From positions 1 through 48,205 of the forward strand of contig JAQYVT010000012.1 in the NCBI GenBank assembly GCA_030145345.1: 48,205 bases of DNA. Direction: 5' to 3'. Shown piece after piece: positions 22,182 through 25,255 of the stretch; the stretch's first letter is position 1; each line of letters begins with the position of its first letter. The translations under genes and the position numbers were made by a program. The notes below the pieces were generated by a model. The model was not told where the DNA came from. It saw nothing but the letters and a program-made list of their open reading frames with translations, and made no database searches. Origin of the DNA: Desulfobacterales bacterium. GTDB lineage: Bacteria > Desulfobacterota > Desulfobacteria > Desulfobacterales > UBA11574.

Positions 22182-22298
22182 AAAAGGAAGTTATCACAGT
22201 TTGTTGTGCCGTGCAAGACGTATGTTTGCCGGCATTTTGAAGGTTAAAAAATTTATCTTTTACCGCTAATCTGAATTTTTTTCAAGCTGAGATAACAT

Positions 22299-22510
22299 AA
22301 ACCTAAACTGATCGGTTCCAGGTTCAGGGTTCAAAGTTCAAGGGTTACAACCGATTGAAACTGCTCAAAATATTGATCGAAATCCGGAATGCCTGCCATA
22401 ATCTATTGGGTGGAACGGTTTTGAACCCACGATGAAGCCAGTATCACATTGATGCGAGCTGTTTGAGGTTTTTCCAACCCGGAACGTTGAACCCTGAACC
22501 GCTCAACCTC
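22299..22510. repeat. 210-base dispersed repeat, left copy (inverted relative to 24439-24642)
   Basis: The sequence AACCTAAACTGATCGGTTCC and what follows reappears as reverse complement at 24439-24642 with high identity over about 200 bases. The interior block around 22400-22470 (ATCTATTGGGTGGAACGG and AGTATCACATTGATGCGAGC) is nearly identical. Within each copy the ends GGTTCAGGGTTCAAAGTTC and GAACGTTGAACCCTGAACC are themselves near inverted repeats, so the unit resembles a palindrome-ended MITE. It occupies most of the 22182-22629 gap. Confidence 0.8.
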
Positions 22511-22559
22511 GGATAAAATAATTTCTTAGCGGTGTTTATCGGAAATCCTGGATAGCATC

Positions 22560-22588
22560 TTGATTGCCATAGACGGTAATGCTACGAT
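22560..22588 (+). promoter_or_regulatory. Possible promoter of the M48 protease gene
   Basis: TTGATT at 22560-22565 and TACGAT at 22583-22588 are separated by 17 bases, about 40 bases before the ATG at 22630. Both hexamers deviate from consensus. Confidence 0.35.
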
Positions 22589-22629
22589 ACAGGCCGTTTT
22601 TTCATTAATGATTGTTGTCCGGGGTGTGA

Positions 22630-23892
22630 ATGATACCATTTAACGCATGTTTGATCGCCTATATCAGTGCCTATCTTCTCAGTGTGGCCCTGTGTCTGGC
22701 CATCGAGCGAATAAATATAAATTATCTCAATAAGTATGGGCAAAAGGTTCCCGTGGCCTTTCAAGGGGTGATTCATGCGGCGGAGTTAAAAAACATCATT
22801 CGATACACCACGGACAATTACCGATTCATGTTTCTCCGGACCAGCGCCGGCAAAATGCTTTTTCTTTTTATCATTATGTCAGGGGTTCTCCCATGGCTCG
22901 ATGAAAAACTGGCGACCACAAATTTTTTGTCTGCAGGCTTGATTTTCTTTGCCGTCATTGGTCTGGGAGAGATGTTGGCCGGCCTTCCTTTCGATTATTA
23001 TCATAGTTTTGTCATCGAAGAACGATACGGTTTTAATACAAAAACCATAAAAATTTGGATTTCTGATCTGGTAAAGGGATTGCTGGTGATGATCGTTTTG
23101 GGCGGTTTTCTCCTATCCGCCCTCCTGTTGATGTTGAAGTATCTCGGAGAGAACTGGTGGATTTGGGCCTGGGCTGTTTTTTTGTGTTTCCAGCTGTTGA
23201 TGACCGTTCTTTATCCCACCCTTATTGCACCCCTGTTTAACGCATTTACACCCCTCGAGGAGAGCGACCTTAAAACCGGGATTAAACGACTTGCCCAAAG
23301 AGAAGGCCTCGACATCGAGGGGATATACCAGATGGATGCAACCCGGAGAACCCGGCACACCAATGCGTATTTTTCAGGACTGGGAAAAGCCAAGCGGATC
23401 GTCCTGTTCGATTCTCTGATTCAATGTCACAGTCCAGCCGAAATCCTGTCGATTCTGGCCCATGAAATCGGACATCTGAAAAAAAATCATATTAAAAAGC
23501 AAATTCTTTTAAGCGGTTTCGTGTCCTTTCTGCTTTTCTTTCTGGCAGCAAAGTTGATGACATGGGGAGTGATGTATGAAAGTTTTGGTTTTTCAGACAG
23601 GTCTTACTATGTGGGCCTTTTTCTGATAGGGTTTTTGTGGGAGGCTGTAACGTTTTTTCTGTCGCCCGTTGGAAAAGCTATTTCCAGAAAATTTGAACGG
23701 GAGGCGGATTTTTATTCTCTCGGGATTATAAAGACCGCAACGCCCCTCGTCACTGCGTTGAAGAAAATGGCAAAGGAAAACCTTTCGAATCTCAGACCGC
23801 ATCCGCTGTATGTCTTTTTTAACTTTTCTCACCCACCCTTGCTCGAAAGAATTGAATATCTGGAAACGGGTGAAATGTCCGGGGGGCTGTGA
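22630..23892 (+). CDS. M48-family membrane metalloprotease, Ste24-like
   Basis: An integral membrane zinc protease of 420 residues. It has the N-terminal Ste24-type domain with several transmembrane helices (residues about 5-25, 75-95, 100-125, 155-180 and 185-210) and the substrate-interaction sequence YHSFVIEERYGFN. The zinc site is HEIGH at 278-282 within LAHEIGHLKKNH, with the third ligand Glu in FEREADFYSL near residue 357. Bacterial members are presumed to degrade misfolded or small membrane proteins, since CAAX prenylation is absent. It stands alone between two inverted repeats. The ribosome binding site is GGGGTG. Confidence 0.9.
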   Translation: MIPFNACLIAYISAYLLSVALCLAIERININYLNKYGQKVPVAFQGVIHAAELKNIIRYTTDNYRFMFLRTSAGKMLFLFIIMSGVLPWLDEKLATTNFLSAGLIFFAVIGLGEMLAGLPFDYYHSFVIEERYGFNTKTIKIWISDLVKGLLVMIVLGGFLLSALLLMLKYLGENWWIWAWAVFLCFQLLMTVLYPTLIAPLFNAFTPLEESDLKTGIKRLAQREGLDIEGIYQMDATRRTRHTNAYFSGLGKAKRIVLFDSLIQCHSPAEILSILAHEIGHLKKNHIKKQILLSGFVSFLLFFLAAKLMTWGVMYESFGFSDRSYYVGLFLIGFLWEAVTFFLSPVGKAISRKFEREADFYSLGIIKTATPLVTALKKMAKENLSNLRPHPLYVFFNFSHPPLLERIEYLETGEMSGGL

Positions 23893-24044
23893 AGACAGGG
23901 GCGACCGGTGAGAACCTCGGGTTTTTCATCCCCTAGAAGACGGTGTCATCATCCGGTGGTTCGGTGTTTAAAGTTCCCGTGTCCGGTTGTCCGGAGAGGG
24001 AAGGCGGGGATCGTAATTTATAGGGGCCGTCATCGGGTGGACAT

Positions 24045-24080
24045 TGTCCCCCGGTCCATGTAAAAAAGGACCAGGGGACA
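24045..24080. other. Strong intergenic hairpin downstream of the ferredoxin gene
   Basis: TGTCCCCCGGTCC (24045-24057) and GGACCAGGGGACA (24068-24080) form a 13-bp stem with one mismatch and a 10-base loop. It sits 18 bases beyond the ferredoxin stop and about 150 beyond the convergent protease stop, so it may end both transcripts. No U-tract follows on either strand, so an intrinsic terminator is uncertain. Confidence 0.5.
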
Positions 24081-24097
24081 TGGATTCGATTGACGGA

Positions 24098-24286
24098 TTA
24101 TGTCTCTTCTACCGTAATTGCACCGGGTTCACACACCTCGACACAACTCTCACAACCCAAACATTCGTCAGCATTTACCGGAACAGATTTATCGTCCTCC
24201 ATCTCAAACACTTCAACAGGACAGACATCTACACATTCCTCACAACCTTCACATTTTTCTTGGTCAACAGTAGGGATAAAAGCCAT
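24098..24286 (-). CDS. Dicluster [4Fe-4S] ferredoxin
   Basis: A 62-residue acidic electron carrier with two clusters. The motifs are CEGCEECVDVCP (residues about 12-23) and CLGCESCVEVCEPGA (about 43-57), giving the full eight Cys in the 2[4Fe-4S] arrangement. The second half uses CEPGA rather than CP, a common variant in anaerobes. The start has a strong AAAGGAGG upstream. It is monocistronic and lies convergent with the protease gene inside the inverted-repeat-bounded segment. Confidence 0.95.
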   Translation of the reverse strand: MAFIPTVDQEKCEGCEECVDVCPVEVFEMEDDKSVPVNADECLGCESCVEVCEPGAITVEET

Positions 24287-24361
24287 TTAAAGAGCCTCCT
24301 TTCACTATAGAATTAGGTCACGGCGATAAAATTCACCGCTCATTCATTATCGCGAAAATTC

Positions 24362-24388
24362 CTTATACCAATTGATTGGGCGAGTCAA
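24362..24388 (-). promoter_or_regulatory. Possible promoter of the ferredoxin gene
   Basis: On the minus strand TTGACT (24388-24383) and TATAAG (24367-24362) lie about 75-100 bases before the ferredoxin start. The spacer is only 15 bases, shorter than optimal, so the call is tentative. Confidence 0.35.
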
Positions 24389-24438
24389 GCTTTCTTGTGT
24401 ATTTTTTTAACTTTTATGAAAACATCTATTTTACACAT

Positions 24439-24642
24439 AGGTTGAGCGGTTCAGGGTTCAACGTTCCGGGTTGGAAAAACCTCAAACAGCTCGCATCAAT
24501 GTGATACTGGCTTCATCGTGGGTTCAAAACCGTTCCACCCAATAGATTATGAGCAGGTATTCCGGATTTTAATCCATATGTTGAGTAGGTTCAATCGGTT
24601 GTAGCCCTTGAACTTTGAACCTGGAACCGATCCGTTTAGGTT
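24439..24642. repeat. 210-base dispersed repeat, right copy (inverted)
   Basis: Reverse-complement counterpart of 22299-22510. It begins AGGTTGAGCGGTTCAGGGTT and ends AACCGATCCGTTTAGGTT. Differences from the left copy are scattered substitutions and short indels, concentrated around 24550-24600. The two copies enclose the M48 protease and ferredoxin genes. The rest of the 24287-24832 gap holds only the tandem repeats before the four-helix-bundle gene. Confidence 0.8.
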
Positions 24643-24734
24643 ATATTTGGAAAAAGACCGAAACAGAAATTTTATGCGTTCCGTTTAAATGTTTTTTCGC
24701 AAAAAAAACGAAATTTTAGCGTTTTGGGAACACT

Positions 24735-24825
24735 GCTGCTTTAGGGTCTCGCTTATCTTGGTTTCAAAGACCCGAATTTAAAAATAAGGATTCAAGGATT
24801 CAAGGGGCCAAGGGGTCAAGGATTC
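24735..24825. repeat. Left flank repeats of the four-helix-bundle gene
   Basis: CTTATCTTGGTTTC (24750-24763) followed by tandem AAGGATTCAAGGATTCAAGG and AAGGGGTC units up to 24825. The same blocks occur as reverse complement after the gene (25138-25200), so the gene sits in an inverted-repeat cassette. Confidence 0.6.
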
Positions 24826-24832
24826 GAGTGAA

Positions 24833-25117
24833 ATGCTTAAGAATTACATAGAGTTGAAAGTTTGGCAAACGTCGTGCAGACACTGTTTGGATCTTAATAG
24901 AATAACAAAAAATTATCCAAAAGAAGAAAGATATGGCAGGAAGACAATAGCGAACGACTTGAGGTCATTATCTGTTGCCGATGGTTCTGTTTGCGAATTG
25001 GCGCCCCGGGTGCTGCTTTCCGGTGATTTGCATTATGTAACTACAGAAAATTTAAAGGATCTCAATGATGATGCAGCGGAAGTTGAAAGGATGCTCAAAG
25101 CACTGATAAAATCGTAG
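24833..25117 (+). pseudogene. Four-helix-bundle protein (TIGR02436/S23 type) with internal deletion
   Basis: The N-terminal helix YIELKVWQTSCRHCLDLNRI and the motif KNYPKEERYG match the S23/IVS four-helix-bundle family, and the C-terminal part (RKTIANDLRSLSVADGSVCE, VERMLKALIKS) matches its last two helices. In the family a block of about 20 residues (the LTSQIRRAAVSIP...EGYG segment) lies between ERYG and RKT. Here the two are joined directly as ERYGRKT, consistent with an in-frame deletion between two YG-coding sites. The 94-residue product lacks the second helix, so it is probably non-functional or altered. There is no clear ribosome binding site. Family members occur in rRNA intervening sequences or as mobile-like cassettes with flanking repeats, as here. 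Confidence 0.7.
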
Positions 25118-25137
25118 GAAAACAAACGGTTGCCGGA

Positions 25138-25200
25138 GTGAAACCAAGATTCCGTCATTGGAGGACCCTTGACCCTTTGAGACCCCAAATCCTCGAACCC
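25138..25200. repeat. Right flank repeats of the four-helix-bundle gene
   Basis: GAAACCAAGATTC (25140) and GGACCCTTGACCCTTTGAGA (25162) are the reverse complement of the left-flank blocks at 24750-24825. This inverted flank supports a repeat-bounded cassette of about 450 bases. Confidence 0.6.
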
Positions 25201-25255
25201 TCTTCTCCGCGCCATCCAACCAATTTCGTTTCGGTAACCCAGAAACCCTGTTTTT

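Follow-up and report, generated by a model that had tools for sequence, protein, structure and literature searches.

Bacterial MITEs are short, gene-less elements with inverted ends, which duplicate their target and occur in many intergenic copies, with empty sites in relatives. One of them, the BrickBuilt MITE of Porphyromonas gingivalis, is described as containing short tandem repeats and inverted-repeat ends and as being present in 19 intergenic copies in one strain (PMC4596501). The repeats analyzed here, located in a 48,205-nt stretch of DNA from a Desulfobacterales bacterium (the window), have these general features of bacterial MITEs, but differ in that the PF01609, PF13701 and PF00665 loci searched yielded no autonomous element with matching ends. 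As far as BrickBuilt is described in that report, both are MITEs with short tandem repeats, inverted-repeat ends and intergenic copies; however, the tandem units of BrickBuilt measure 23 nt, compared with imperfect 7-nt units here, and sequence and phylum are different.

5-bp AT-rich target duplications have been described for ISEcp1, a member of the IS1380 family, and for Tn3-family derivatives (PMC2887853). The present element shares this type of duplication with IS1380-family elements such as ISEcp1. The inverted repeats of ISEcp1 begin with CCTAG, so that the CCTA start of the ends is also held in common, but beyond CCTA the ends are not alike. Tn3 ends begin with GGGG, and the 38-bp end repeats of the Tn3 family contrast with the imperfect 17-nt ends starting with CCTA found here. 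Since the end strings of the element had no match in the literature searched, and nothing specific to this group of bacteria was found there on MITEs, the family is apparently undescribed, yet of the well-known MITE kind.

The inverted repeat pair and the enclosed genes

An earlier note on this DNA had reported two inverted repeats of about 210 bases with high identity, each with inverted ends of its own, enclosing an M48 protease and a ferredoxin. We could confirm the pair to within a few bases: the left copy comprises 211 nt (22302-22512, + strand) and the right copy, which has one 7-nt unit fewer, 205 nt (24436-24640, - strand). Compared end to end, 193 of 204 aligned bases are identical, and the alignment contains one gap, of 7 nt, on the side of the right copy. 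In the raw repeat finding, the pair was represented by arms at 22397-22509 and 24439-24551 (113 nt, 100% complementary), at 22321-22396 and 24553-24628 (76 nt, 87%) and at 22300-22334 and 24608-24642 (35 nt, 91%), a complementarity far beyond chance. The exact ends of both elements were fixed by the inverted ends together with the target duplications.

Inverted ends are indeed present in each copy. The outer 17 nt form imperfect inverted repeats (CCTAAACTGATCGGTTC / CCTAGGTTGAGCGGTTC), and further inward in the left copy the stretches 22321-22339 and 22482-22500 are 95% complementary. The left copy starts with the L-end terminal repeat CCTAAACTGATCGGTTC (22302-22318, + strand), which has no mismatch to the end signature given below, and finishes with the R-end terminal repeat CCGAGGTTGAGCGGTTC (22496-22512, - strand; one mismatch). 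The right copy carries the R-end repeat CATAGGTTGAGCGGTTC (24436-24452, + strand) and the L-end repeat CCTAAACGGATCGGTTC (24624-24640, - strand), with one mismatch each. Three imperfect 7-nt units, GGTTCAG GGTTCAA AGTTCAA, lie inside the L end of the left copy (22321-22341, + strand), and copies of the element vary in length in steps of this size. The longest reading frame within either window copy has at most 52 codons, and the copies contain no gene. The left copy is flanked by ATAAA on its 5' side (22297-22301) and again on its 3' side (22513-22517), the right copy by TTACA (24431-24435) and TTATA (24641-24645), which agree in four of five positions. Both duplications are AT-rich.

The identity of the two enclosed genes was borne out by Pfam. 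An M48 metalloprotease with a CAAX-protease-type N-terminus is encoded at 22630-23892 (+ strand; PF16491 and PF01435), and a two-cluster 2[4Fe-4S] ferredoxin of 62 aa at 24098-24286 (- strand), within the alignments to two congeneric genomes, G003 and G002. The M48 start codon is preceded by the left copy at a distance of 117 nt and the ferredoxin start codon by the right copy at a distance of 149 nt, and each copy faces the gene with its R end. Owing to this position and orientation, it is possible that the copies change the expression of both genes.

Dispersed copies, target duplications and empty sites

Mapping of further copies throughout the genome, which the earlier note had proposed as a check, revealed a large family. 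A search of the own assembly (3.57 Mb, 188 contigs) returned 42 matching places, among them 24 near-full-length copies of at least 183 nt, distributed over many contigs, with 82-100% identity to the left copy. When aligned, they follow a common pattern, CCTAAACTGATCGGTTC-CA-(7-nt units GGTTCAG/GGTTCAA/AGTTCAA)-interior-GGAACGTTGAACCCTGAACCGCTCAACCTAGG. The number of units varies and, as a result of unit loss, copy lengths differ in 7-nt steps (211, 204, etc.), ranging from 191 to 211 nt in the 21 copies that have both ends. According to crude ORF calling, all 24 copies sit between genes and none is spanned by a long ORF.

To quantify the target duplications, we compared the 5-bp flanks of those 21 copies in which neither end is damaged. 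These were drawn from the 28 longest matches, with shorter matches left out; three copies with one damaged end (L018-L020) and four partial ones (L025-L028) had been set aside before counting. Matching was found for 92 of 105 flanking bases, as compared to 53.3 expected from re-paired flanks (z 8.9; none of 2000 permutations as high). The duplication is exact in 14 of the 21 copies and extends to at least four of five bases in 19, the remaining two (L006 and L014) having no matching duplication. A first version of the test on 17 copies gave the same answer in another phase, with a best z of 6.6.

Comparison with the congeners revealed the sites without the element. The genome G003 aligns with the window unbroken across both insertion points and contains neither copy. 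In G002 the right copy is absent, and the target there reads TTATA once. Together these are three observations of empty sites, both sites in G003 and the right one in G002, the empty left site being observed in G003 only. The left site of G002 (L072, reverse strand, about 1265-1390) is occupied by another insert, of ~110 nt and unrelated to the element, with inverted ends of its own, GGTAAACGCATTTGA / TCAAATGCGTTCACC; an end similar to that of this insert is present at locus L193 of the own genome. Both congeners carry the M48-ferredoxin segment in the same order and orientation as the window, with M48 orthologues 89% identical, and without these flanking copies. The comparison thus shows the M48 and ferredoxin genes to be resident rather than cargo, and the copies to have arrived later.

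We therefore consider it highly probable that the pair represents two independent insertions of a non-autonomous, MITE-type DNA transposon, given that each copy has its own 5-bp duplication, that the congeners have empty sites and that the genome harbors 24 near-full-length copies. The earlier note had offered two insertions of one repeat family as one of two options, and it is this option that the data favor. Five features of a MITE are present: a short element without a transposase gene, terminal inverted repeats, a duplication fixed at 5 bp, dispersed copies, and empty sites with a restored target. The inverted ends, the fixed duplication, the empty sites and the dispersed copies point to a DNA transposon that is mobilized in trans. 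In the proposed mechanism, a transposase encoded elsewhere would recognize the imperfect inverted ends, starting with CCTA, of the gene-less element of ~211 nt and paste it into a staggered cut, and repair of the gaps would leave the 5-bp AT-rich target duplication, as the duplications themselves suggest. We infer such an enzyme, together with its cut-and-paste or copy-and-paste chemistry. Of the two window copies, one would have inserted ahead of the M48 gene and the other, oppositely oriented, ahead of the ferredoxin gene. The appearance of an inverted pair is a by-product of the relative orientation of the two copies. What surrounds the two genes is ordinary mobile DNA, dispersed over this genome of sulfate-reducer type and those of its relatives, and most probably no flip switch. 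The striking pair is explained by a common mobile element that inserted by chance, and thus offers no phase-variation story to build on.

Alternative readings of the pair

Could the element instead be a domesticated structured RNA or regulatory element, e.g., a small RNA, a terminator or a promoter donor, that is kept by selection and not by transposition? The element folds better than shuffled sequences (z -4.5 for the + strand and -2.1 for the - strand), but folding is what inverted ends give, and RNAalifold on 25 diverse elements retained nine pairs, all of them end-to-end, with a total of -1.35 kcal/mol. The R end of both window copies faces the downstream start codon, and promoters are reported to be carried by the BrickBuilt MITE of P. 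gingivalis (PMC4596501). Over the 24 copies, however, no orientation preference towards neighboring genes was evident by crude ORF calling, and a search of Rfam with the element gave no match of value. Taken together, we regard selection for such a role as an improbable explanation of the family.

The other option of the earlier note was an invertible cassette. As considered here, site-specific or homologous recombination between the two copies would turn the M48-ferredoxin segment around and in this way change its expression. Perfect inverted identity over 113 nt at a distance of 1.9 kb would suit such an exchange. In addition, the two halves of the window pair differ unequally, with no differences in 113 positions on the right and nine in 87 on the left, and the window pair alone of 275 has identical right halves, which fits gene conversion. 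The hint at gene conversion or homologous exchange between the two window copies is nonetheless a weak one, since the right half is the more conserved half in general (mean difference 8.3% versus 14.5% for the left half among copy pairs). An inversion would unpair the duplications, each copy then combining its own outer one with the other copy's inner one in inverse form, whereas each copy has kept a matching pair; the segment has consequently not been left inverted since insertion, and the assembled orientation can be taken as the orientation at insertion. G002 and G003, which lack the copies, show the segment in the same orientation, so that a single orientation is seen in the assembly and in two congeners, and the repeats belong to a genome-wide family. 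No site-specific recombinase was found among the 18 window ORFs scanned with Pfam (13181-33268). The invertible-cassette proposal is not supported by these observations and is very unlikely, although a minority of cells may have the other orientation.

A composite transposon, in which both copies would move jointly and take the M48 and ferredoxin genes along, is suggested by two inverted copies of one element flanking a short segment, but it is refuted by the congeneric empty sites, as the segment occupies the same place in G003 without the copies and in G002 without these copies, and each copy has its own duplication instead of one shared outer pair, leaving this reading next to no probability.

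End signature in relatives, transposase candidates and the S23-type neighbor

When 60 relatives were searched with the element, 33 gave a match at E 0.001 or better, mostly short matches to the ends, and the 211-nt type is present in diverged form in other genera. An alignment of 25 elements from the own, congeneric and more distant genomes showed 92% identity at positions 1-17 and 82% over 193-211, as compared to a mean pairwise identity of 55-59% in the interior. Conserved ends combined with a variable interior are expected if an enzyme reads the ends.

The end signature CCTARRYTGAKCGDTTB was detected in all 24 genomes of the bacterial family, at 2 to 81 sites each, whereas its reversed control occurred at two sites in total in these genomes. 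Pairing of ends in the loci examined yielded elements of ~42-65, 160, 208, 211 and 240-290 nt, which have the ends in common and differ in their interiors. In a hand count of 59 end pairs, which includes a few overlapping or doubtful pairings, 50 agreed in four or more of the five duplication bases, 35 of them in all five. The exact 23-nt end pattern was found in 55 stretches of named records, all of them with titles referring to Desulfobacterales, Desulfobacteraceae, Desulfosarcina, Desulfatibia, Desulfatiglandales, Deltaproteobacteria or the Olavius Delta 1 symbiont; the end is present, for instance, in the closed Desulfobacterales chromosomes CP070746 and CP070673. A 35-nt pattern had no match in genome contig records, and a plasmid search likewise gave no match. 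The family of end signatures helps to annotate Desulfobacterales MAGs. A second MITE class of ~255 nt, with the ends CCTAAATTGAGCGTTTC / CCTAAGTTGAGCGATTG and 5-bp duplications, is likewise dispersed over the genome and found in its relatives (e.g., L108 591-845, L110 872-1126 and L138 1501-1756).

To search for the transposase, PF01609 loci were inspected in four genomes of the genus and nine further ones, PF13701 loci in 24 genomes and PF00665 loci in eight. None of the loci in these genomes, which are fragmented assemblies, had a transposase with the ends of the element. PF13701 was represented by nine loci in eight of the 24 genomes, two of them over the cut-off, and no IS1380-type transposase locus with these ends was among them in the 24 genomes of the family. 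An IS1380-like enzyme would fit the 5-bp AT-rich duplications and is a candidate only. In the own genome, the sole PF01609 match is an IS4-family element on contig C43 (L128, G000:C43, 1231-2763; 1533 nt), which has perfect ends of 20 nt, ACTCAACTTTCGGGATTAAA, and is flanked by a 5-bp duplication, TGTTT; as its ends differ, it was rejected as a partner.

The loci examined were also screened for an autonomous partner in the form of facing end pairs 450-7000 nt apart with matching duplications. The best facing pair (L165 519-2246, G009:C84) lies 1728 nt apart and is flanked by TTAAA on both sides. Its ORFs, with translations judged by eye, look ordinary and not transposase-like, and it was rejected as an autonomous element; its ends are more likely two separate element ends. 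The ends with the enclosed ORFs are possibly a composite unit, or a product of chance. Two further candidates, G016:C426 (2319 nt between the ends) and G000:C103, were dismissed for ordinary-looking ORFs, again by eye. Identification of the missing transposase would be of general interest. A bolder and rather doubtful proposal is that of an order-wide dynasty, in which five or more MITE size classes (about 65, 160, 208, 211 and 255 nt) do not resemble each other in their interiors, yet all have the CCTARRYTGAKCG end and the 5-bp duplication. They would still be moving in many Desulfobacterales genomes, and the enzyme mobilizing them in trans would lack these ends itself in every genome examined and possibly not be one of the usual DDE insertion-sequence transposases.

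Next to the pair, the window contains a degenerate copy of a 23S-rRNA-intervening-sequence-type element (S23, four-helix bundle, PF05635) at 24787-25208, in which an ORF (24833-25117) is flanked by inverted arrays of ~8-nt TTCAAGG-like units. Several S23 copies have caps in common, such as TCATCTCCAATTGAG..GTGTGATC and CTCTTCTCCAACTAAATTGGAGAAGAACC; in the window copy these have been lost. The S23 protein has 46 tblastn places in the genome, many of them at contig ends, and the S23-type element has the appearance of a mobile element with multiple copies outside rRNA. Two S23 elements (L206, G000:C95:10600-12200, and L207, G000:C33:8900-9979) contain a MITE copy at an identical position, and the S23 element was apparently duplicated with the MITE already inside it.
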